NCBI RefSeq assembly: GCF_932294415.1
Contig: NC_065535.1
Span: forward strand, 15,538,282 to 15,602,281
Direction of reading: 5' to 3'
Source: Quercus robur
Taxonomy: Eukaryota; Streptophyta; Magnoliopsida; Fagales; Fagaceae
Length of the DNA stretch: 64,000 nucleotides
Shown: piece after piece, positions 2,822 to 48,885 of the stretch
Numbering within the stretch: the stretch's first letter is position 1
Layout: every line of letters begins with the position of its first letter
Position numbers and translations under genes: made by a program
The notes under the pieces: generated by a model
Database searches by the model: none
Seen by the model: the letters and a program-made list of their open reading frames with translations, nothing else
Told to the model about the DNA's origin: nothing

Positions 2822-4670
2822 GGGCAAATTATTACTTACCCACCTGTGGTTTGGTGGAAATTTAAATTGTCTACCTGTAGTTTGAAATTTAACACTTTAC
2901 CCACCTGAGCTTAGCTCAGTTAGAGTTTTGTAACCCACCTCTATTAAAAACAGGGTTAAATATATAATTTTGTTATACTTTTATATCTCTCTCCTCCAAA
3001 AACACATAAAAACATAAAAATGTAAGATGAAATAAGATCAAAAAGATGTTGGTAAGGTTTTGAAAAAAACATTTAAAAGAAAAGCTTCCTTTGCCTAAGC
3101 TAAAGTCCACTCTCATTCTTCGGTTGAGTCCACAAACAAACTTCCTACAAGCAAATCAATGTACCAAGGTACCAGTGATTAATGATTTACATTTTCTAGG
3201 TGGATTGGATACTCTGAAATAAATGAAGGCCGAAAGAAAGGTTGTAAGCAGTGGGCCAGTGACGTTACACCAACTAGTTGAGTGGGAGATTTCAAGTAAA
3301 ACATTCTTCTCAATGAAAGGATGTATGGGCCAGTGACGTTACACCGACTAGTTGAGTGGGACTGTGGGAGATTTCAAGTAAAACATGCTTCTCAATTGAA
3401 AGGATGTATGGTATGAACACTCGATCAATGGATTACTTAGCAAAATCGGATGTATGGTAAACATTATCAACAAATTAAAAGACAAAACTACACGATGCTT
3501 TTCAATCCCAAGCAATTATATTTGGCGTTGTGTTCAATATTGTTCTCTAGACATTGGAGGGGTGTCCTTCAAAGTAGCTGTGCCCACTCCTTTAAAGATT
3601 CCCAATTGTCCCTTGAAACAAGTTTCAAGTTTATGATCATAAATCATGTAGATATACTATCTTAATCTAGTATTCACTCTAAAACTTAACCAGAAACAAA
3701 ACAAATCAATGAGAAATTCCAATGTATTTGAACATATATGTAGATATACTACTTTAATCTAGTATTCACTCTAAAACTTAACCAGCAACGAAACAAATCA
3801 ATGAGAAATTCCAATGTATTTGAACATATATAAAGGAGTGACAACAGCACGTTAAGGAGTATATCAGTGCATACAACCCAGTAAATCAATGACGAAGCAA
3901 GAATTCATGTAGTTGTATATAATTTTTTTTTTTTTTAAATTTACCATCATCTTTTTGGTCTTATTTGATATTATATTTGATAGGCTCGATCATATCATCA
4001 ACGTCCATCCATTCACGACTAGGGACGGACGACCTATCCAAGCTCGTCTTGGAAGCAATGGCCGTCGTTCAAGGACGAGTGAATCCACCTCCACTCCTAA
4101 AGGAACCGTTATAAAACATTAATCAGCTTCCAGACCATTGGGAGGGGCAGCTCATCATTAACACCCCGCAGGGGCGTTACCAGGGAAGAATAAAATCTTC
4201 ATCAAGGCTCCACCAACAGCTAGAAGAAACCACCTGCGAGTGCATGCATATAAATACATAACTCCAAAAGGGGAGGAGGTAATTCAAAAACTCTAGCATA
4301 TTATTTTCACAACTTCTCTTTTGTCAATCTTTCTGGCTTTGGCATCGGAGGCTTTTTGGCAGGCACCACGCCGACGACTTGCATCCATTCTTCCCTTCAC
4401 TCGTTCTTGGAGATCGAGTTGGTTGAGGACGACATCAATCTGGATGATCATCCTTGGCTGACGATCTGAACATCATCAATATTTTTATATTTTTTGTGTT
4501 TTTGGAGGAGAGAGATATAAAACTAAAGCAAAATTACACATTTAGCTCTATTTTTAATAGAGGTGGGTTACAAAACCCTAACCTCAGGAGAGTAAAGTGT
4601 CAAATTTCAAATTACAAGTAGGCAACTTAAATTTCCGCCAAACTACAGGTGGGTAAATTATAATTTCTCC
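2822..4670. mobile_element. Non-autonomous Mutator-like element (1.85 kb, long TIRs)
   Basis: Terminal inverted repeats of about 180 bp run at 2822-3005 and 4490-4670. The left begins GGGCAAATTATTACTTACCC; the right, reversed, begins GGAGAAATTATAATTTACCC. Flanking 9-bp target duplications are AAATATTAT (2813-2821) and AAATCTTAT (4671-4679), with one mismatch. Copy B carries the empty site near 32405. Long TIRs with a 9-bp duplication define the MULE class. The interior has two short tandem duplications (3252-3408 and 3648-3835) and a piece that looks like a retrotransposon LTR, but no transposase. Confidence 0.85.
3975..4470 (+). mobile_element. LTR-like fragment carried inside the MULE
   Basis: This GC-richer stretch differs sharply from the AT-rich MULE around it. 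It carries a TATA-type element (CATATAAATACATAA around 4247-4260) and, about 100 bases on, a TCGGAGGC and CACGCCGACGAC stretch of the kind found in U5 regions of plant LTRs. No clean LTR ends are visible, so it is a captured or nested fragment. A captured gene promoter is the alternative. Confidence 0.35.
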
Positions 4671-5107
4671 AAATCTTATATATCTAAATAAAAATACTTA
4701 TAGAAGATCTTAATTTTAGGGGAGACCATGAACCCCACCTCATCTATATGTATAGTTCTAACTCTATCCTCCATCTCAACCACCACATCCCATTAGCCAA
4801 TTGCAAATTAACATATATTATATGTGGATTAGGTTTTCGAAATAGAGCCCAATGCCATTCTAATCATGAAACCGCAAATTAACATATATTATATGTGGAT
4901 TAGGTTTCGAAATAGAGCCCAATGCCAGTCTAATCATAAAACCACAAATAGCAACAATTGGAATTATCCATAATTTAGAGCTTTAGAAGGTTCATGCTTT
5001 CATTATTTCTTGTAAATCTTGAGATTATAAGCATATTTGACCTATTGATGCCTAATTCTCATATTCAAAAAAATTTAATAATAGGCGACATGGCAGGATT
5101 GATATCC

Positions 5108-5108
<1 letters not shown>

Positions 5109-5165
<57 letters not shown>
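5109..5165. repeat. ATT microsatellite
   Basis: About 19 ATT units. Copy B has the same site at 32845-32862 with only about six units, so the tract expanded here or shrank there. Confidence 0.9.
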
Positions 5166-5169
<4 letters not shown>

Positions 5170-5180
5170 TTTGCTAAAAA

Positions 5181-5275
5181 TAGTGTAGTTCAATTGGTTG
5201 ACAATACCTAATATTTCCAATATGTCCAGGTTTCAAATCTTCACTCTCTTATTGTAACTATCTAATTATCCAAAA
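5181..5275 (+). mobile_element. Short tRNA-like SINE
   Basis: TAGTGTAGTTCAATTGGTTG resembles a pol III A box region, and CCAGGTTTCAAATCTT 50 bases on resembles a B box. An A-rich end follows. The same element lies at the colinear position 32871-32970 in copy B, so it predates the segmental duplication. Confidence 0.5.
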
Positions 5276-5467
5276 AATAAAAATCCTCTATTTTATTTAT
5301 TTTTTGAGAATCTTTATTTTTATGGTTAGGGAACAGAGTTACAGGGATGATTTGACTAAGCCCTCTGAATTCTTTTATTATTTTTCTATAAATACTTAAA
5401 TAGGATAGGACTATAGGAGTACAAAGTAAAAGAAAGAATAATAAATAAAATAAAAAAATAAAAAGAT

Positions 5468-5750
5468 AAAGGTAAATTGCAAGTTACACTCCTAAAATTT
5501 GGGGTGTTTGGATTTTACATCCTAAAATTTCAGAATTTAAATTTTATCCTCTAAAGTTTGGAGGTGTTTGGAATTTATACTCTGATGTTTCAAAATTTAG
5601 ATTTTACCCCATAAAGTTTGGAAGTTTTCGATTTTACACTCCCAAATTCTGAAACTTTAGAGTGTAAAATCTAAATACCTTCAAACCTTAGGGAGTAAAA
5701 TCTAAATACCCCTAAAATTTAGAGAGCAAACTTCAAATTTTGAAATGTAA
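5468..5750. mobile_element. Palindromic MITE (copy A)
   Basis: The element consists of variants of TTTAGATTTTACCCCC and AAAGTTTGGAAGTG in direct orientation on its left half and inverted on its right half. It is also present at 33168-33450 in copy B, so it is older than the duplication. Confidence 0.5.
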
Positions 5751-6336
5751 AAAAAAGAAAATGAGGCGGTCAATCATTTTGGTAGATGAATACCAGGAAA
5801 AAGACCCTACATCATCAAATAGTATTGTTAGATGTGAACATTATTAATACTAACTTGTAACCTCATGTACATACATGAATACATTTAAAGATATACAATA
5901 AAATGCATAGTATAATTCTTATATATATAATTTAAATATTATTGATAATCATTCTTATTCTTATATTTTGTTAACTCTTTGAAAAGTGTAAGAATATTAT
6001 TAGGTATAAAATGTAAATTGTCCATGTTTACTTATTTATTTTTATTTTTATTTTTCTATTACTTCTTGATTTTTGTTATTGTGAACTTTTTTTATTTATT
6101 TTTTTACGATTTATTTATTTTAAACTCTTTGGATTTTGTATTTAATAACTCACTTAGATGAATATTTAAAAAGTGGTTCCACATTTGATTCTAAAATTAG
6201 GAAATAAAACTCTCTCTAAAAACAAATAACTTAGGACACATGGTACAAAATTTGACTAATTTAATTGGATTTTCTTTGTGTTTTGCCTCTTTTTTTTTTT
6301 TTTTTTTAAAGTGAGTTTTGCCTACTAATATTAATT

Positions 6337-6367
<31 letters not shown>

Positions 6368-6391
6368 GTTTGCAATTGTAAATATCCTATA

Positions 6392-7200
6392 AATGGGCAA
6401 CTAATCTCTTTTTTGGAAATATCTGGAAAAAAAATGGCACGGTTGAAAACTATCTCAAGAAAAAAAAAAAAAAAATCTTTTTCGAAAAAGGCATCTAAAA
6501 TAGTAAGTACTAATAATTCTAAAATTTTAGGTGGGAGTTTGGATCATAGTAAATTCAGAGGTTCGTATTCATACTTTAAAGCAAAGAAAGGGATATTTAA
6601 ATGCGGTTCATTATTTAGCCAAAAACAAAATGCGGTTCATTAAAGCCACGCCACTTCACGTGATTAAGCAGTTAATGGATGAGACCATTCAATTGATAAT
6701 TACTATAAGAGAGCTTCATGGCAGTTAAACTCGATATGAGTAAGGCATACGATAGGGTAGAATTGGTTTTTGTTGAAAAGGTGATGAGGAAGCTGGGTTT
6801 TCAACACCCATTCAATCATTTTCCATGAAAACCCAGCTTCCTCATCACCTTTTCAACAAAAACCCATTTTACCCTATCGTATGTCTTACTCATATCGAGT
6901 TTAACTGCCATGAAGCTCTCTTATAGTAATTATCAATTGAACGTTCTCATCCATCAACTACTTAATCATGTGGCTTTAATGAACCGCATTTAAATATCCC
7001 TTTCTTTGCTTTATAGTACGAATACGAACCTCTGAATTTATTACAATCCAAACTCCCACCTAAAATTTCAGAATTATTAGTGCTTACTATTTTAGTTGCC
7101 TTTTTTGAAAAAGACTTTTATTTTCCCCCTTGATATAGTTTCAACCGTGCCATTTTTTTTTTTGGAGATATTTCCGAAAAAGACATTAGTTGCCCATTTA
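6392..7200. repeat. 0.4-kb near-perfect inverted repeat (palindrome)
   Basis: Arm 6392-6810 is repeated in reverse at 6828-7200, with a spacer of about 20-26 bp (CAACACCCATTCAATC...). The pairing of TAAATGGGCAACTAATCTC at the outer left with the outer right, and of GATGAGGAAGCTGGGTTTT at the centre, is plain. The outer part of the left arm corresponds to copy B (34020-34240), which has only one arm. The inner 95 bp is a LINE reverse-transcriptase fragment. Confidence 0.9.
6714..6812 (+). pseudogene. LINE reverse-transcriptase fragment, left palindrome arm
   Basis: Translation gives KLDMSKAYDRVE, followed by FVEKVMRKLGF. This is the highly conserved RT segment of plant LINEs that holds the first catalytic aspartate (LDMSKAYDRVEW); the tryptophan after VE is leucine here. 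An inverted copy lies at 6829-6925. In intact LINEs the next block is the one at 21214. Confidence 0.85.
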
Positions 7201-7790
7201 GCGACGACCAAAAAATCATCACTATTAGGCACACATTATTGACGATAATATATGGTCCTCGCTAATAAGTGCATAGTAGCAATGACAGAAAGGTAGTCGC
7301 TAATAAGTCGTTGCTAACGCCATGGATGGAATTTTATTTACTTTTGGAAAATGGAGGAAAACTTTTAGCAACGACAATAAATTTTGTAGCGATGACATTT
7401 ATGTTGCTAAAATAAGGTTTATTTTAACGACAACATCTATTGTCACTAATAATCATCTTTAGTGACGACCTTGTGTATTATCGCAGATATGCGGCCAAAA
7501 ATATATAGTAAATATATTATATATATATACTTTATTTTTTAGTGATGACACATTGGTCGTTGCTATTAGAAAGCTATTAGCGACGATATAATTTGTCGTC
7601 TCTGATAATCACCTTTTAGCAATAACACAACATGTTGTCGCAAATATATCTACCAAAATATAATGGAGGGAAAATTTTCCACTATCAAAAAGTGGTGGGA
7701 ATTATTGGAGGGAATCAGATTATATATTAGCAACGAATCAGGTCGTCGCTATACGGGATCTTTTAATGAAGACAAAGATTGTCATCACTA
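7199..7790. mobile_element. CACTA-like subterminal repeat region (left)
   Basis: Dense short repeats of the type TAGCGACGAC and GTCGTCGCTA appear in both orientations about every 40-60 bases (7199, 7300, 7375, 7545, 7585, 7720). They match the style of 20755-21212. The canonical CACTACAAGAAA terminus is not seen at the left; the palindrome ends where it would be expected. Confidence 0.55.
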
Positions 7791-8284
7791 ATATGTGGCT
7801 AAAATAATTTTGATATATTTTTTATTTATCAAATCCTCCAAATGCCTCTTAAAATATTTAAAATGACATAAATTCCTTTAGTATATTCGAAATGATTAAA
7901 ATACCATTAGCCTTGCCAAAATGACCAAAATACCCCCAAACTTAAATAATAACCAAAATAACCTTGAAACCTACAAAGTAATTTAAAACTCTCAAATTTG
8001 TAGAGAGAGAGAGAGAGAGAGAGAGAGAAGGGAGGGCTTGTTGCTTCAGAATACTCTCAAACCACAATGTTACCCATTTGAAACTTGAAATCAATAAAAT
8101 AACAAAAATCGAGAAGGTTCTAATTCCATTCAAAATACTGACTAATACCCATAATTATCAAAATATAAATCGTATCGTGAATCAATTTTTTATTTTTCTG
8201 TATCATATGTCATAAGAAAGGTATTAGTCAATATTTACCAAACTAATAAATTCATTATAAATATTATGAATTTATAAATTCATA
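7791..8284. other. AT-rich spacer without recognised gene
   Basis: Contains a GA microsatellite (8003-8028) and repeated phrases of the type AAATGACCAAAATACC around 7860-7960. No coding sequence recognised. Confidence 0.6.
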
Positions 8285-8419
8285 ATATATTCAACTAATA
8301 ACCAATTCAATCATTAGTTATGCAATAATATTTACCAAAAGTAACTAAATAAATCAAATTAAAATATATTTATAACATACATATTCAAATTAATTAAAAT
8401 CAGAAGTGATAATTCATGA
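8285..8419. repeat. Direct repeat flanking the LTR element and satellite, left copy
   Basis: About 135 bp starting AATATATTCAACTAATAACC recurs at 16987-17130 with small differences. The LTR retroelement inserted at the right end of this copy, and the remainder (TATATGAGCCAAAATAATAA) resumes at 14338. Confidence 0.8.
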
Positions 8420-9191
8420 TGTAAGGACTCAATTTGTAACGGCCCCAAATTGGTTTATTGGGTTCGAACGTTAAAGGCCCAAACAATAAAATTGTAGAGA
8501 GTGGGTTAAAAGGCTAGGCTTTAGTCACCGAATAGTTGTTAGTCATGGTGTTCAAGATAATCGCACAAGGGTGAATCATGCTTGCCCAAGAAGGCTTTCT
8601 CCTCGGCACGGCCTGGGAGGCTCTAGTTCTTGGCCCTCGTCCTATGAGCTTAATGTTCTTGTTATCCCCTTTTTCTTTCGGTTCTCCTGGTTTTTCTGAG
8701 TCCCCCCCCCCCCCTTTGGCACATGAATTCTTACATTATATAGCCCCTCTCGGTTGATCCTGACCTTCCATCTGTTGATCAGGCAGGTAACTACTCGAGT
8801 ACCTGTCCCATCAGCCGCCTCCCCCCACTTTCTGATAGTTGCAATAACTGAAACCACACTGTTCAGGGGTCTTTTCCCATCAATGTGGCTAGGACATTTG
8901 TTGGCGCATTCAATGCGGAGGTGACGTCTTTTCCTTGAACCACTCCCACACTATACCCCCGTGCGAGTCCCATTCTACTCGCCTTTTCTTCTGGGAGCGC
9001 TTTGGGGGCTGCCTTTGATGACATGTCGTTCTTCCCTTTTAGGCCTTGGGATGCTGAGGACAGGGTCATCCTCGGCTGCATCTCTAGGCCATTTGGACTT
9101 TCGCTGCATGTCCTCGGTAACTACTCTCCTCGACGCGAGCCTTGGGCCTTAATGGAAAGTGGGCCAGGACCACAAATTCTCTGGTCCCACA
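8420..9191 (-). repeat. LTR (3' LTR in the element's sense)
   Basis: On the minus strand it starts TGTGGGACC and ends GAGTCCTTACA. A TATA-type stretch GGGGCTATATAATG reads on the minus strand at 8733-8746, as expected for U3. It is about 95% identical by eye to 13560-14332. Confidence 0.93.
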
Positions 9192-9472
9192 ATAGCCCCT
9201 CAAAATCCTGCTGTCCGGATCCTCGGACGGAGAGGAGGGTTTTGATGTCATCAAGCCTCTATCATAGCTTGTCAATCCTTGTCATCTATCAGTTCCAGAG
9301 ACTCTTCATCTGCCCGAGACACGTTCTTGGAGCCTTGGTAGGTGAAACGTGTCTTCATTAAATGCGGGCGGCTCTGTGCTTCTCACGTTCAACAGCGCAA
9401 TGGTAATCTAACGGTGGAGATTTCCTTACCTTTATGGGCGGGAAAATTCGCGCAGTTACTTTTGATGGGAGG

Positions 9473-9480
9473 TATAAATA
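9473..9480 (+). promoter_or_regulatory. TATA box of the antisense gene
   Basis: TATAAATA lies about 250 bases before the start codon, on the strand opposite to the element's sense and outside the LTR. The leader that follows is pyrimidine-rich and has a possible leader intron (donor TCTGTAAGT at about 9620). Confidence 0.55.
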
Positions 9481-9728
9481 ATTTTCAAAACTGATTTGTC
9501 TCTTCACTTTCGCACTTAAGATTTCTAGTGCACATATCCTGGGTTCAGTCAAACTTTCATCCAAATTCAAGTCTATCTCCAGCATAAAAAGCTTGTCCGA
9601 GGAACCTTTCCTCCTTTCTGTAAGTTTTCTGCTCTCACTAACTCGTGCTTTTTCTCTTCTGGGTTTATTTTTCTCTTGTTCCTCTCCTTCTCCCGTCATC
9701 CCCTGAGTCTGTTTAGTAGTTCCTAGAG

Positions 9729-12366
9729 ATGGCTAAATTGAAAAAGTTGGTTGAGACCGAAGAGGCGATGGAAAAGTTCATTGCCGACTATAGGATACCC
9801 CCCAACATAAGTTTGAGGTACTGCAAGGAGGGGGAGTGGCATCTTAAGAGAAGGACGGGGGAGGTGGTAATTCCCCTTCTCGCCTTCATAGAGGGGGGTA
9901 TGAGAATCCCCATGGGGCCGGTAATGAGGAATTATCTTAGGCATTTCCGATTAGCTCCCACCCAGTGCGCCGCTAATGTGTTTAGGATTCTGGGTTGTGT
10001 GGATGCCTTAAACGAAAAAATGGGGCTAAGACTAACCCATCATGACGTAAATTGGTGCTACAACCTCCAACATTTGAAGGGCAAATCCTACTACATGAAG
10101 ACGAGAGACGATAGGGTTCGGCTAATCCAGTGCCTCCCTGAGTCCAACAAAGGATTGAACAAGGACTTTCTTATTGTATCTAGGGAGTGGCACGATGGCC
10201 TTCCTTACCCAATTGTGGAGGGAGAACCAGGTGGGGTGTAGAGAGTAGGAGGGGGCCAATCTTTTGCGCCGTCTTAATTTTGTGTGGTTCGGTTACTAAC
10301 TATGAACATGTCTTTTTTTTGTAGATCCATACGCCTTTCACCTACACTTTCATCTGGTCAACCGGGTGGATTCGGAGACTGTTCTCTAGGCGGCGGTTTT
10401 TGTAAATGACGAGGATGGTCAAGTCAGGGCCACTCACAAAATCTTAGGGTACGATCCCATCCAGAAGTCATTTGCCGCCCCAAAGTACATGATTAGAGCT
10501 AACGATCCTCGGTTTCAGAAAATCACTGTAGTCGAGCACGGTTTTTTGATCTCTGAAGGATCTTCTGTCCCAGAGGGCATCCCGTTGGCAGTCTCTTCCA
10601 CGTCTCACCAAGCAGCGGAGGACGAAGGTGATTTGGGTCTGTCCGAGAAGGGATTTGGGGTATTTGACCAAGCTGACCCATCCGAGAATCCTTTCGGTGA
10701 CCTAGGTGACCCTGACTTGTCTGAAGCGGAACTATTGTCAGTGGAAACATCCTCTCGGGCGGAGATGGGTCTTAAGAGAAAGCCCCCCACCAGCTTGTTC
10801 AACCTCATTGAGGGTCAGTCGGGGAAGGGTGCATAGGGAAAGTCGTAATCTAGTGTTCCAACTCCCCCACCCCAACCCCAGCCTATCCAGAATAAGTCTT
10901 CTCCTTCCCGATCGTAGCCATAATCTCCCCGCCCCAAACTTCCTGCTCTTCCTTAATCAACTCTGCCTCCTTGGCCGGAGCCCATCGACCCAAAGAGAAA
11001 GAGGAGTCCCAAGGGTAAGGAACCAATGGATGGGGGGAAATCCTAACCCTCTCGAGAGGAGGACGAAGCCCCGCGAGCTCAAAAACAGTTGAAGATCGGG
11101 CATCAAGGCAAGGGGAAAGGGATCGATGCCCAATCCGCGCCGAGTGCTTGGCTTCCTGCCCCAATGCTCCATGGGGAGCCATTGATGGAAGATGCATCCA
11201 TGAGGAACCTTGGAGACGGCGAAGGCGCTTATGTGGCCGACGCGATAAAGAAGGCCCTGCTACTTCCCACCGATATGAAAGAATTGAAGAATATGCGGAT
11301 GCAGGAGGTTTTCCTCAGCGTGAAGAGGTACCTGGGTATGGTAAGACTTCGTCAACTTTTGCTCCTAGATTCCCGTTCATAATGTGTTTGTCTCAATTGG
11401 CAGGCTATCCAGGCCACCTATAGGTTGGAGGAAGAAGCTAAGGGGCAGAGTAAGTTCACAGAGCTTGAGCTCAATAAACGTATAAAGGCTGCGCGAACCC
11501 TCAAAAATTCTGAGGCTGACCTCGCGAAGGCCAGGGAAGACTTAAAAGAGGTAACTAGAGCCAGGGATAGTGTTGAGGTAGGTTTGACTAGTGTCCAAAA
11601 ATAGGCCGAGGAACAGACGAGGTGCCTACTTGCTGCCGAGGAGCAATTAGAGATTGCCAAGAAGCAGATCAGTGATTTAAAGAAGAAACTGATCGAGGCA
11701 GACAATGCTAAGGGCGTGGCGGAATGGGCCAGGGATGAAGCCGTGAGGGCCAAGACAGAGGCCGAGTTTGCCAAGACTGAGGCCGAAACTACCAAGGACA
11801 AGGCCGAGGAGGAGGCTTACGATGCAGGGGTGGCTGAAACCCAGGCCATCCTTAAAGCTCAAATACCTGGTGTATGCAGACTATACTGCTCCCAAGTTTG
11901 GAATGAGGCCCTTAAACGAGCTAGGGTGGAAGCTTCGTCCAACTTGTGGAAGGCGAAGAACGTGTTTTATCCTCCAGCCATCCATGAGACCGCCCCCACC
12001 AACTCCGAGGCTGTGAACATTCCACAGGAGGCTGAGGTTGCTCAATCAGAAGCTGCTCAGCTCATTGTCATTCCTGGCGAGTCGACTGAGGGAGGAGAGC
12101 CTCCTGAGACGACAGAAGCACTCGGAGGTCTGAATCCTGAGATGCCTCAGGAGGCTGCCAAGTCTACAGTCAGTGCTCAGATCTCTGATGCCGAGGAGCC
12201 AGCCCTCTTTGTTCAGTCCCTTCAGGCCATTCCCCTTGCTGATGTCTCCGAAGGCATCGAGGCTAATCCTGCTCAGCCTTGCCAGGAAGGGGATGTCTCT
12301 CAGGGTCTCGAGGCTAATCCTGCTCAGCCTTCCCAAGAAGTGGCCAAAACGAAATTGAAGAAGTAG
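9729..12366 (+). pseudogene. Antisense gene of the LTR element (gypsy-type 'transposase' domain plus coiled coil), with 8 premature stops
   Basis: Three exons fit one frame: 9729-10230 (donor CAG then GTGGGG), 10325-11340 (donor GTAAGA) and 11404-12366, together 827 codons with no frameshift. Residues 1 to about 250 resemble the plant 'putative gypsy-type transposon' domain (PF04195-like), with FRLAPTQCAANVFRILG near residue 75 and APKYMIRANDPRF in exon 2. The middle is basic and proline-rich. Exon 3 starts with a long alanine/glutamate/lysine coiled coil (RDEAVRAKTEAEFAKTEAET). The C-terminus is acidic and holds the doubled phrase EANPAQP. Function is unknown; such antisense frames are known in some plant LTR elements. 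Premature stops lie at 10387, 10834, 10846, 10915, 10921, 10954, 11044 and 11602, so this copy is dead unless only exon 1 is used. Confidence 0.8.
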
Positions 12367-12754
12367 AAGCCCTGGCCAACTTTTGTATTTGTTTCTAGTT
12401 TAACTATTAATTAGTTTCTCTTTTGCTTTGAGGACCTTAGAGTTTGTCTATAATTAAACTCTTTGACCACATGTATGAAATTTTTTTCTTCCTTTTTCCT
12501 TCAAATTACATGTTCGTTGCCCTTGCCGATATTTACTATTGTTGCGAATCTCATGATTTTTGAACTAGTTATCTTAACATGTATGAATGGTTGTGCATAT
12601 GATATATTTGGGATCACATCCCAGAATTCTAACTTACCCGCGCCTATAGGGCGTTGAATTTGTATCTAAACATACTTCTGGGGGACTAAAGGCATCATCC
12701 GAGGTGTCGTGCGTGTTGTTGGGCCGTGTCTGGTACTTAGATTTTCTTGGAGTA

Positions 12755-13290
12755 TCTAGTTTCCCCGTAGGTTTGAGTCCAAGGACCATGCAAGACCTTG
12801 GTTCTGTCCAAAACTTATATTTTTTCTTAAAGTAGTTGGTTTCCCCATAGGCTTGAGTTCGAGGACCATGCAAGACCTTGGTTCTGTCCAAAAATTATAT
12901 TTTCTTAAAGCAGTTAGTTTCCACATAGGTTGGAGTCCGAGGACCATACAAGACCTTGGTTCTGTCCAAACTTATATTTTTTCTTAAAGTAGTTGGCTTC
13001 CCCATAGGTTTGAATCCGAGGACCATGTAAGACATTGGTTCTGTCCAAAACTTAGATTTTCTTTAAGTAGTTGGTTTCCCCATAGGTTTGAGTTCGAGGA
13101 CCATGCAAGACCTTGGTTCTGTCCAAAACTTAGATTTTCTTTAAGTAGTTGGTTTCCCTATAGGTTTGAGTCCGAGGACCATGCAAAACCTTGGTTATGT
13201 CCAAAACTTTTCTTAAAGTAGTTGGTTTCCTCATAGGTTTGAGTCCGAGAACCATGCAAGACCTTGATTATGTCCAAAACTTATAGGAAT
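12755..13290. repeat. Seven tandem 78-bp repeats in the element's leader
   Basis: The core GAGGACCATGCAAGACCTTG recurs near 12783, 12863, 12941, 13020, 13098, 13176 and 13249, spaced 80, 78, 79, 78, 78 and 73 bases. The array lies between the primer-binding site and the 3' end of the antisense gene. Confidence 0.92.
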
Positions 13291-13539
13291 TCGGTGAATC
13301 GGGCTAATGGACTCGCGAGGATTAGCCCCTTAACAAAGGTGTGTGGGGCATAAACCTGATGTTGGAAGCCCCTAGAACTACCCGCACCACTGGCACTTCG
13401 AAGTGCAGCCTTGAGTGGGAGCTGAGTTAGGATGACAACCCCGTGCTGTTGGAAATGATGGAGGAGCTTTCACAGACCCTTGTTTGACAGGAGCTTCATC
13501 CTACCATGATTAACCGCCACTTGTGCCAACGCACAAGCC
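13291..13539. other. Leader of the LTR element between tandem repeats and primer-binding site
   Basis: GC-richer unique stretch, no reading frame recognised. It is the place where packaging and dimerisation signals would be expected in such an element; none can be identified by eye. Confidence 0.4.
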
Positions 13540-13557
13540 TTCCCACAGACGGCGCCA
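13540..13557 (-). other. Primer-binding site of the LTR element
   Basis: TGGCGCCGTCTGTGGGAA on the minus strand, two bases from the LTR end. This TGGCGCC type of site is usual in plant LTR retrotransposons, mostly gypsy-like ones, and fixes the element's sense as minus. Confidence 0.85.
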
Positions 13558-13559
13558 AT

Positions 13560-14332
13560 TGTAAGGACTCAATTTGTAACGGCCCCAAATTGGTTTATTG
13601 GGTTCGAACGTTAAAGGCCCAAATAATAAATTTGTAGAGAGTGGGTTAAAAGGCTAGGCTTTGGTCACCGGACAGTTGTTAGTCATGGTGTTCAAAATAA
13701 TCGCACAAGGGTGAACTGTGCTTGCCCAAGAAGGCTTTCTCCTCGGCACGACCTGGGAGGCTCTAGTTCTTGGCCCTCGTCCTATGAGCTTAATGTTCTT
13801 GTTATCCCATTTTTCTTTCAGTTCTCCTGGTTTTTCTAAGTCCCCCCCCCCCCTCTTTGGCGCATAAATTCTTACATTATATAGCCCCTCTCAGTTGATC
13901 CTGACCTTCTATCTGTTGATCAGGCAGGTAACTACTCGAGTGCCTGTCCCATCAGCCGTCTCCCCCCACTTTCTGTTAGTTGCAATAACCGAAACCACAC
14001 TATTCAGGGGTCTTTTCCCATCAATATGGCTAGGATGTTTATTGGCGCATTCAATGCGGAAGTGACGTCTTTTCCTTGAACCACTCCCACACTGTACCCC
14101 CGTGCGAGTCCCATTCTACTCGCCTTTTCTTCTGGGAGCGCTTTGGGGGCTACCTTTGATGACGTGTCGTTCTTCCCTTTTAGGCCTTGGGTTGCCGAGG
14201 ACAGGGTCATCTTCAGCTGCATCTCTAGGCCATTTGGACTTTCGCTGCATGTCCTCGGCAACTACTCTCCTCGGCGCAGGCCTTGGGCCCTAATGGAAAG
14301 TGGGCTGGGATCACAAATTCTCTGGCCCCACA
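13560..14332 (-). repeat. LTR (5' LTR in the element's sense)
   Basis: Starts TGTGTGGGGCC and ends GAGTCCTTACA on the minus strand. It is followed immediately by the primer-binding site and holds the same minus-strand TATA-type stretch near 13875-13890. Confidence 0.93.
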
Positions 14333-14494
14333 CATGATATATGAGCCAAAATAATAAATTTTTTCATCATTTTATCTAATCAACTTTACCTAAGTTAATG
14401 TTAATGTTCATCATATTTCAAAATTATTTCTTCATTGACATTTTCTATCAACGATTCCAATACCCAATAATCCACTAAAAGCCTTCCCATGAAC

Positions 14495-16915
14495 CTAGTT
14501 TTACCAAGTCCAGTGGTCTCAGGACCATCTATTAAGTTTGACTCGGTTTGACCAATTTTAACTAAACTTTGACCGTGCCTTTCTCTAAATCCAACCATTT
14601 GATTGTGACCATAATTTATGAAAATTAACCTTTCATTACACTCTTCAAATCCAACGGTTAGATTTCAAATCTAAGTATGACATGTGATGGACATCTATTG
14701 TGTACCTGTATGGCTATGTTCTCTCAATCTGACTATCCAATTAGTCTTAAATTTCACCAACACCAATATGTCACCATACTCTTCAATCCCAATGATCGAG
14801 ATTTGAAAATGAATTTCACTAAGTCTAGTGGTCTTAGGAACATCTATTAAGTTTGACCGGATTTGACCAACTTTAACTAAACTTTGACTGGGCCTTTCTC
14901 TAAATCCAACCGTTTGATTGTGACCATAATTTATGAAAATCAACCTTTCATTACACTCTTCAAATTCAACGGTTAGATTTCGAATCTAAGTATGACACAT
15001 GATGGACATCTATTGTGTACCTGTATGGCTATGTTCTCACAATCTGACCACCCAATTAGTCTTAAATTTCACCAATACCAATATGTCACCATACTCTTCA
15101 ATCCCAATGATCAAGATTTGAAAATGAATTTCACCAAGTCTAGTGGTCTTAGGAACATCTATTAAGTTTGACCGAATTTGACCAACTTTAACTAAATTTT
15201 GACCATGCATTGCTCTAAATCCAACCGTTTGATTGTGACCATAATTTATGAAAATCAATCTTTCATTACACTCTTCAAGTCCAACGGTTAGATTTCAAAT
15301 CTAAGTATGACACGTGATGGACATCTATTGTGTACCTGTATGGCTATGTTCTCTCAATCTGACCATCCAATTAGTCTTAAATTTCACCAACATCAATATG
15401 TCATCATACTCTTTAATCCCAATGATCGAGATTTGAAAATGAATTCCACAAGTCTAGTGGTCTTAGGAATACCTATTAAGTTTGACCGGATTTGACCAAC
15501 TTTAACTAAACTTTGACCGTACCTTTCTCTAAATCCAACAGTTTAATTGTGACCATATTTTATTAAAATCAACCTTTCATTACACTCTTCAAATCCAACG
15601 ATTAGATTTCAAATCTAAGTATGACACGTGATGGACATCTATTATGTATCTGTATGGCTATGTTCTCTCAATTTGACCATCCAATTGGTCTTAAATTTCA
15701 CCAACACCAATATGTCACCATACTCTTCAATCCTAATGATCGAGATTTGAAAATGAATTTCACCAAGTCTAGTGGTCTTCGGAACATCTATTAAGTTTGA
15801 CAGGATTTGACCAAATTTAACTAAACTTTGACCATGCATTTCTCTAAATCCAACCGTTTGATTGTGACCATAATTTATGAGAATTAACCTTTCATTATAC
15901 TCTTTAAATCCGACGGTTAGATTTCAAATCTAAGTATAGCGCGTGATAGATATATGTTGTGTACCCGTATAACTATGTTCTCTCAATCTGACCATCCATT
16001 TGATCTTAAATTTCACCAACACCAATATGTCACCATACTCTTCTATCTCAATGATCAGGATTTGAATTTGAATTTCATCAAGTCCAGTTGTCTCGGAACC
16101 ATCTATTAAGTTTGACTAGGTTTGACCAACTTTAATTAAACTTTGACCATGCCATTCTCTAAATATAACTGTTTGATTGTGATCATAATTCACCAGAATT
16201 AACCTTTCCTTACACTCTTCAAATCCAACGGTTATATTTCAAATCTAAGTATGGTTGTGATGGACATGTGTTGTGTACTTGTACGACTATGTTATCTCAA
16301 TCTGACCATCTAATTAGTCTCAAATTTCATCAACACCAATATGTCACCATACTCTTCAATCCCAATGATCCAAATTTGAATATAAATTTCACCAAGTCTA
16401 GTGGTCTCGGGACTATTTATTAAGTTTGACTAGATTTGACCAACTTTAACTAAACTTTGACTGCGTCTTTCTCTAAATTCAACCATTTGATTGTGACCAT
16501 AATTTACGAGAATTAAACTTTCATTGCACTCTTCAAATCCAACGGTTAGATTTCAAATCTAAGTATGGTGTGTTATGGACATATGTTGTGTGCCTATATT
16601 GCTATGTTCTCTCAATCTGACTATCCAATTGGTCTCAAATTTCATCAACACTAGTATGTCACCATACTCTTCAATCCCATTAACCAATATTTGAATATGA
16701 ATTTCACCAAGTCCAGTGGTCTCGGGACCATCCATTAAGTTTGACCAGATTTGACCAACTTTAACTAAACTTTGACCACGCCTTTCTCTAAATCTAACCG
16801 TTTGATTGTAACCATAATTCACCAAAATTAACCTTTCATTACACTCTTCAAATTCAATGGTTAGATTCCAAATCAAAGTACGGCGCATGATGGAAATGTG
16901 TTGTGTACCTATATC
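14495..16915. repeat. Satellite array, period 314-315 bp, about 7.7 copies
   Basis: The marker ATATGTCACCATACTCTTC recurs at 14766, 15081, 15396, 15710, 16025, 16339 and 16654, a spacing of 314 or 315 throughout. Each unit contains TTTGACC words several times. Units differ by scattered substitutions, with the left four more alike than the right ones. No gene; the frames seen on the minus strand are repeats of the unit. Confidence 0.95.
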
Positions 16916-48203: not shown

Positions 48204-48204
48204 T

Positions 48205-48885
48205 TTAAAAACCTCATTCATCAAGGACTAAAATGTGGAAAGGGCATTGGTCAAACCAAATGGCATTACAAGGAACTCATAATGTCCTTCATGGGTTCTA
48301 AAAGCAGTTTTAGGGACATCATGTTATTTTATTCTAATTTGGTGATAACCTGATCTTAGATCAAGTTTAGAAAAAAGGCTAGCTCCATGCAATTCATCTA
48401 AGAGTTCATCAATGATAGGGATAGGGTATTTATCTTTGATTGTAGCTTGATTCAAGGCCCTATAGTCAACACACATACGTCAAGAACCATCTGCTTTTCT
48501 TACTAAGAGAACAGGGGAAGCAAATGGACTTTGGCTATTCCTAAAAGACCCCACCTCCAATAATTCTTTTACTATTTTTTCAATTTTAGTTTTTTGGTAA
48601 TAGGGATACCTATTGGGTCTTTGGCAGACTGGTTGGGTGCCCTTCTTAAGATTAATTTGGTGTTCATGACCCTTTAGAGGTGGTAGACCTGCTAGCGTAG
48701 CAAATACCCCATCAAACTCTTGCAACAAAGACTCAATAGCAACTGAGCATTGGTTCTGATCAACAATAGCACATTGCACTACTATGTGAACAAGTAGACC
48801 TTTCTTAGTAGGTTTCTTGAGGAATTGGGAAGTATCTTGTGAGCTAGTACTTGCTACCTTAATTCCTTGTAAGAGTAGAACTCAC
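48205..48885 (-). pseudogene. Gypsy reverse transcriptase, N-terminal half
   Basis: Minus-strand translation gives LPPLKGHEHQINLKKGTQPV, then [47 protein letters not shown] and [18 protein letters not shown]. These are the ordered RT motifs up to the block before the catalytic DD. An in-frame stop follows at LSTF. Broken just after NEVFK by an insertion. Confidence 0.88.

Follow-up and report, generated by a model that had tools for sequence, protein, structure and literature searches.

The stretch of the Quercus robur genome analysed here (64,000 nucleotides of contig NC_065535.1, in a 786-Mb assembly of 42 contigs; hereafter the window) carries at 8420-14332 a retroelement with long terminal repeats (LTRs) that has neither gag nor pol, and whose three-exon gene, a relative of TRP28 (PF04195), lies antisense to the element. 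The missing gag-pol is a trait of the family, and this is new here. The antisense TRP28 gene as such is already known, having been published as a hallmark of the Retand lineage of Gypsy elements. Comparison of gene copies makes a good case for selection on the encoded protein in exon 1, a fair one in exon 2 and a weak one in exon 3. Taken together, we give about even chances to the proposal that the family is a non-autonomous derivative of a Retand-type element, without gag-pol and mobilised in trans, whose antisense TRP28 gene has been retained for its benefit to the carrier element.

What does the antisense gene do? In the accessible part of a survey of 63 Retand clusters (Vicient 2025; PMC11963269), an antisense open reading frame (ORF) is reported in every representative element and TRP28 in 97% of the clusters, a figure that concerns recently active ones, and DNA binding by TRP28 is predicted. 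If our proposal is true, a gag/pol-less family with a constrained TRP28 gene would separate what the gene does from the making of particles, reverse transcription and integration.

A family without gag and pol

The window element is bounded by two minus-strand LTRs, at 8420-9191 (772 bp, the 3' LTR in element sense) and 13560-14332 (773 bp, the 5' LTR), which form a direct repeat with 95-96% identity in ungapped pieces. Its ends are TG...CA, a 5-bp target-site duplication, CATGA/CATGA, flanks it at 8415-8419 and 14333-14337, and a primer-binding site (PBS), TGGCGCCGTCTGTGGGAA, lies at 13540-13557 on the minus strand, so that 8420-14332 has the full set of marks of an LTR retroelement. The boundaries given in the initial annotation therefore stand, as does its reading of the element's sense as minus. 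Besides the strand of the PBS, there is independent support for this sense from the direction of gag-pol in relatives within this genome, namely the sister elements described below and L076 and L077, which are of Retand type and carry gag-pol. In L076 and L077 the same 19 nt of PBS adjoin the LTR, the gag-pol ORFs follow downstream, and TRP28 is antisense. A purine-rich stretch adjoining the 3' LTR at 9192-9207 (minus strand) is a candidate polypurine tract by inspection. The Kimura two-parameter distance between the two LTRs is 0.0588, and 0.054-0.068 in four other copies; the window element is an old, decayed copy of a large plant retrotransposon family. Just outside it, at 14499-14997, are two 184-bp direct repeats, 92% identical and 315 bp apart from start to start.

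With the L076 and L077 proteins as probes, no match to gag or pol was found in 8420-14332 at E 1e-5, and the element has no long minus-strand ORF, the longest being 143 aa. Lacking gag and pol, as first described, it is not an autonomous LTR retrotransposon. The only matches of these probes in the window are at 48204-48665 on the minus strand, a Gypsy-type reverse transcriptase (RT) fragment 39-43% identical to the RT of L076 and L077.

Is the loss peculiar to the window copy? The initial annotation had allowed that most family members might carry gag-pol, and the sample examined speaks against this. Five longer copies (L039-L042 and L043), a hand-picked and non-random set, all run from the three exons through tandem repeats to an LTR, and the same probes found no gag or pol in them. 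The leader that adjoins the PBS was matched in four of the five, being absent from L041 and partial in L042; the L043 slice starts within the leader upstream of the gene, and its left LTR is known from outside that slice only. Twenty further copies were sampled at a point 3.7-4.4 kb beyond where exon 1 begins. Twelve have LTR or PBS leader there and are gag/pol-less, three have tandem repeat only, one has nothing recognisable, and four (L018, L019, L023, L029) carry integrase or pol. With 5/5 longer and 12/20 sampled copies gag/pol-less, a one-off deletion in the window copy is rejected. In another 20 loci, picked by PBS-side DNA, the repeats adjoin the PBS leader within 15 nt in every case, and the ~1 kb read from each gave no match to gag or pol. 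Beyond the repeats, six of these loci continue into other internal sequence, one (L045) runs into the antisense gene's 3' flank, and 13 remain wholly or nearly within repeats.

A 10-kb LTR-to-PBS copy (C4:4500962) was considered as a gag-pol-bearing member and rejected, as its extra length is tandem-repeat expansion: in this copy, L043, the 78-bp array spans ~5.7 kb. Along that array (~3300-8990 of the slice C4:4502000-4511900) near-identical long ORFs recur, which hints at a higher-order period and possibly at a satellite seed.

The antisense gene

The window gene lies on the plus strand. Exon 1, the TRP28/PF04195-like part, is at 9729-10230, intron 1 (GT..AG) at 10231-10324, exon 2 at 10325-11340, intron 2 at 11341-11403, and exon 3 at 11404-12366. 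In an alignment of 32 rows, made up of the window and 31 other copies, the start ATG is kept in 29, the GT of intron 1 in 31 and its AG in 27. For intron 2, GT..AG is present in 6/6 rows; its length is 79 nt in all five fetched copies and 63 nt in the window. The antisense, spliced, three-exon layout first described is thus confirmed. So is the TATA-like box outside the LTR: TATAAATA, at 9473-9480 on the plus strand and 256 nt upstream of the ATG, is exact in 23/32 rows and is a putative promoter of the gene's own. The survival, in the copies, of introns antisense to the genomic RNA would fit minus-strand RNA as the mobilised template.

The frame itself has fared less well. The initial annotation took 827 codons to be open, and an intact gene of that length is rejected: exon 1 of the window copy is stop-free, but exon 2 has seven in-frame stops and exon 3 one internal stop in addition to the terminal stop, which is present in 6/6 rows. 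None of the six copies read across all three exons is free of stops.

How secure is the assignment to TRP28? Exon 1 matches PF04195 with 23.4 bits (E 7.4e-5), below the Pfam cut-off of 26.2 bits, so that the resemblance noted at the outset is by itself sub-threshold. The kinship is nevertheless clear through L076 and L077, whose TRP28 proteins exceed the cut-off (41.5 and 41.2 bits) and match exon 1 in tblastn at E 8e-9 and 9e-9, with 27-28% identity; 22 columns are invariant in an alignment of 18 rows. In L076 a profile scan identifies gag, RT, RNase H and integrase families; in L077 the gag and pol ORFs were identified from the ORF list alone. As gag-pol is split over several ORFs in both, neither counts as demonstrated active. 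The tandem array of L076 lies between integrase and the antisense gene, and no similarity to the window repeats was found. The layout of L076 and L077 is the published Retand layout, so the antisense gene is a known feature; the layout that the initial annotation found noteworthy is real, but its novelty was overstated, since antisense TRP28 is typical of the Retand lineage in the portion of the survey at hand (PMC11963269). The window family shares two Retand traits, a TRP28/PF04195 gene antisense to gag-pol (by protein similarity to L076 and L077, and antisense to pol in the sister) and the placement of PBS and tandem array as in gag-pol-bearing relatives (19-nt PBS identity; array site in L098 and L076).

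Two observations concern TRP28-bearing elements more widely. Another such family in this genome has many identical scores of 45.3 bits, and most of its open frames are 300-440 aa long; judged from one example read, L076, it has the look of Retand-type elements with gag-pol that multiplied in a recent burst. In the accessible part of PMC10606437, PF04195 tops the Pfam tables for extrachromosomal circular DNA of blackgrass, with 416 and 361 counts, and elements bearing TRP28 may thus be active in that plant.

Codon-level constraint

Selection was assessed in the 32-row alignment and in a clade of 23 rows that remains after leaving out L017, L018, L019, L023, L026, L027, L029, L034 and L037, and in which no pol-bearing copy was found. 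Fifteen of the 23 are verified as gag/pol-less: the window, L011 (= L039), L016 (= L040), L041 and L042 in full, L010, L020, L021, L022, L024, L025, L028, L030 and L032 by slices reaching beyond the gene, and L013 by coordinates only. Codon-model omega in the clade is 0.37 for exon 1 and 0.56 for exon 2, and in the 15 verified copies 0.32 and 0.54; the controls, each read in two frames, give 0.77-1.00 for the leader and 1.02-1.13 for the LTR.

Variants sorted by frequency give a similar picture. Private variants in the 32 rows are near neutral, at 0.91 in exon 1 and 0.93 in exon 2. For variants present in 2, 3-5 and 6-16 rows, the values are 0.44, 0.22 and 0.20 in exon 1 and 0.56, 0.46 and 0.33 in exon 2. 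Exon 1 read in the shifted frames gives 1.21 and 1.94, and the leader control 0.92-1.21 for private variants. The difference between private and shared variants in the 23 copies is significant for both exons (Fisher p 0.0043 and 0.0034), as compared with p 0.09-0.9 for the leader and LTR controls. Shared variants also show a third-position excess.

Might the stretch have been kept as RNA or DNA, for example as a packaging signal or regulatory array, rather than as a protein? Conservation of the leader that precedes the gene comes close to that of exon 1 (0.88 versus 0.90 in mean pairwise identity), as such a role would have it, but the third-position excess, the confinement of low omega to the coding frame of exon 1 and the conservation of the splice sites make this explanation quite improbable. 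Action of the antisense transcript by way of double-stranded RNA and small interfering RNA, which would dampen the family and so spare the host, seems to us similarly improbable. Such action is a general suggestion for retrotransposon antisense transcripts in the available text of PMC7264820, but does not predict constraint at the level of codons. Recruitment of the gene by the host is most improbable of all: we found nothing specific in its favour, exon 1 has at least 150 scored matches spread over many contigs, and DNA that matches the LTR lies upstream in each of the 31 aligned copies (no search for a single-copy, LTR-free homologue was made). The initial suggestion that the gene helps the element or its host thus finds support for the element, within the limits given next, but none here for the host.

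Several results weigh against selection on the protein in the gag/pol-less elements. The 29 copies L010-L038 were picked by protein similarity in exon 1, which lowers omega there; in seven rows picked by LTR DNA, exon 1 gives 0.55 and the first third of exon 2 gives 0.93, as compared with 0.74-0.86 in the leader controls and 0.85-1.14 in the LTR controls. Eight of the 23 clade copies lie outside the verified set (L012, L014 and L015, known from slices, and L031, L033, L035, L036 and L038, read as far as the gene), and within the 15 verified copies the contrast between private and shared variants holds for exon 1 (p 0.029) and is absent for exon 2 (p 0.5). The leader control is not always neutral, dipping to 0.68-0.88 for shared variants in the 32 rows and, in single frames, to 0.47 (23 rows) and 0.52. 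Exon 3, read in six copies, is weaker, at 0.73 private and 0.57 shared. Transversions alone give no clean contrast, with private values of 0.62 and 0.56 and shared exon 1 variants at 14 N : 7 S (nonsynonymous to synonymous). In addition, internal branches make up only ~11% of the length of the exon 1 codon tree, so that whole-tree omega mixes decay after insertion with selection before it.

The stops point the same way. At least one is carried by 16/32 rows in exon 1 and by 31/32 in exon 2, where 27 stop sites occur in two or more rows and seven in a single row, and each of the six exon 3 rows has one to nine. Because stops are common and shared among rows, part of the shared variant class reflects inherited damage or changes that arose more than once. 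A candidate explanation of the shared stops is that the same codons decayed repeatedly. The in-frame stops are mostly TAG in matches to exon 3, and TAG and TGA are both common in matches to exon 1; decay of methylated cytosines would fit.

Short and gag-pol-bearing copies

How are the short copies related to those with gag-pol? In a tree of LTR plus leader, all four pol-bearing copies and L037 stand apart from the rest (ultrafast bootstrap, UFBoot, 100). The 23-copy clade has a UFBoot of 99, and L043 is excluded from the trees. In the gene tree, L017, L027 and L034 group with the pol-bearing L018 and L019 (UFBoot 97), whereas in the LTR-plus-leader tree they group with short copies. Of the three, L017 and L027 are verified as short. 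The conflict is not significant in approximately unbiased (AU) tests, with p 0.062 on gene data and 0.104 on LTR data, and a mosaic origin of the three copies has no significant support; exchange of the gene between short and gag-pol-bearing copies is possible from the tree topologies.

These trees bear on an alternative that we consider rather unlikely, though well short of negligible, namely that selection acts in gag-pol-bearing relatives only, and that deletion or template switching in these relatives gives rise to short copies again and again, each inheriting a recently selected gene. The close relation between the genes of pol-bearing and short copies fits this alternative, as do the position of L017, L027 and L034 and the shared exon 2 stops, which would be expected if short copies did not need the gene. 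Against it, the tree conflict falls short of significance, the clade without a pol-bearing copy retains its low omega in both exons, and the junction of repeats and PBS leader in all 20 PBS-side loci is what a single founding loss predicts.

A possible role for the gene

We therefore return to trans mobilisation with a retained gene. Three kinds of element coexist in this genome: gag-pol-bearing, gene-bearing without gag-pol, and gene-less. In the gag-pol-bearing sister (L085/L098/L099), matches to gag, RT and integrase run antisense to its copy of the gene. Its repeats, similar to the ~7 tandem repeats of ~78 bp found at 12735-13290 in the window, lie between integrase and the antisense gene. 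The window leader between PBS and repeats (13291-13539, minus strand) is matched by the sister only in its last part, at the PBS, and the PBS itself is the same in the window element, L076, L077 and L099. The sister LTR is 86% identical to the window's over LTR positions 306-773, and its antisense exon 1 (L019) is 90% identical as protein. The sister's frames are also broken, the longest in the listed stretch being 263 aa.

The mini-elements L064 and L065, followed from two of the six PBS-side loci that continue into other internal sequence, have the PBS leader and repeats and reach an LTR of the window family ~1.6 kb further on. Neither matches the exons; L064 has no ORF of 130 aa, and the one found in L065 is 136 aa long. 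Together with loci L047, L049, L052, L055, L057 and L058 they appear to be smaller elements with family PBS leader, repeats and LTR ends around another internal region, in which the antisense gene was not found. Their existence is a further point against a retained function, since it means that the gene is not strictly needed in cis.

Our proposal runs as follows. The window family would derive from a Retand-type (Tat, Ty3/Gypsy) LTR retrotransposon by loss of gag and pol. Its members would be riders. They have the PBS and tandem repeats in common with the sister family, whose LTR is related to theirs and whose antisense gene is closely so, and the sister's gag-pol presumably packages, reverse-transcribes and inserts them by way of the shared PBS and related LTRs. 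The TRP28 gene is probably transcribed from its own promoter, and the spliced protein is most likely a nuclear regulator of the family's own DNA, acting on transcription or on escape from silencing. Selection for TRP28 in riders requires some preference of the protein for the copy or subfamily that produces it; this preference would have been strong enough that gene-less riders without gag-pol lost out. Given the mini-elements, the need for the gene in riders is not absolute.

What might the protein recognise? The motif CGAGGA occurs four times in the window LTR against a shuffle mean of 0.34, four times in the L041 LTR against 0.30, and five times in the sister LTR against 0.41. The mini-elements have three and four copies against 0.45 and 0.56 (~100 nt of the L064 stretch being tandem repeat), and the window gene six against 1.68. 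Counts are near or slightly above expectation in L076 (5 versus 5.45), L077 (6 versus 6.85), the window flanks (1 versus 0.45, 8 versus 4.90), the leaders of L041 (1 versus 0.30) and the window (2 versus 0.38) and the sister gag-pol (5 versus 2.15). The motif was chosen after inspection and the LTRs are related to one another, so that these counts are non-independent tests. The excess of CGAGGA-type motifs in the family LTRs and repeats, and not in L076 and L077, suggests a possible target. A more specific version is improbable, though worth stating: TRP28 would be a sequence-specific anti-silencing or transcription factor acting on a CCGAGGA-like motif in the LTRs, the 78-bp array and even the internal region of the mini-elements, which is otherwise unrelated, and the gag/pol-less elements would be a selfish tier whose sole contribution is a nuclear factor that wakes their own copies. 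The three tiers in one genome offer a natural comparison for the gene's role.

Comparison with known systems

Other LTR families without gag-pol exist, among them the large retrotransposon derivatives (LARDs), and such families are thought to be mobilised in trans. The window family is like LARDs in being a long LTR element without gag-pol. LARDs are defined as lacking conserved coding capacity, whereas the window family's gene shows codon-level constraint, within the limits stated above, and on that account the family does not fit the definition. Among the open-literature papers listed, we found no title or opening of an abstract on a gag/pol-less family with a constrained TRP28 gene; subscription journals were mostly outside this scope, so that absence from print is not established.

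VANDAL elements are DNA transposons, unlike the present family, and we claim no sequence relation between their VANC anti-silencing proteins and TRP28. As a working model only, the two systems have in common an element-encoded protein, non-coding tandem repeats and sequence-specific targets, as far as the accessible parts of PMC5735166 and PMC10398659 describe them.

The closest likeness is to the Retand lineage itself. As described in the available text of Vicient (2025; PMC11963269), Retand elements have the antisense TRP28 gene between pol and the 3' LTR, with tandem arrays in the same region, and L076 and L077 fit this description; the window element differs in being without gag and pol. 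Ten of the 63 clusters are there described as incomplete, missing GAG, AP, or RH and INT. Since an uninterrupted RT domain was what the elements were identified by, the survey would be blind to gag/pol-less ones. The antisense ORFs of maize Grande (gene 23), rice RIRE2 and Silene Retand occupy the same place, and the gene 23 product is nuclear and its gene has a promoter of its own, in the accessible part of PMC7264820; those elements are described there with gag-pol, which the window element lacks.

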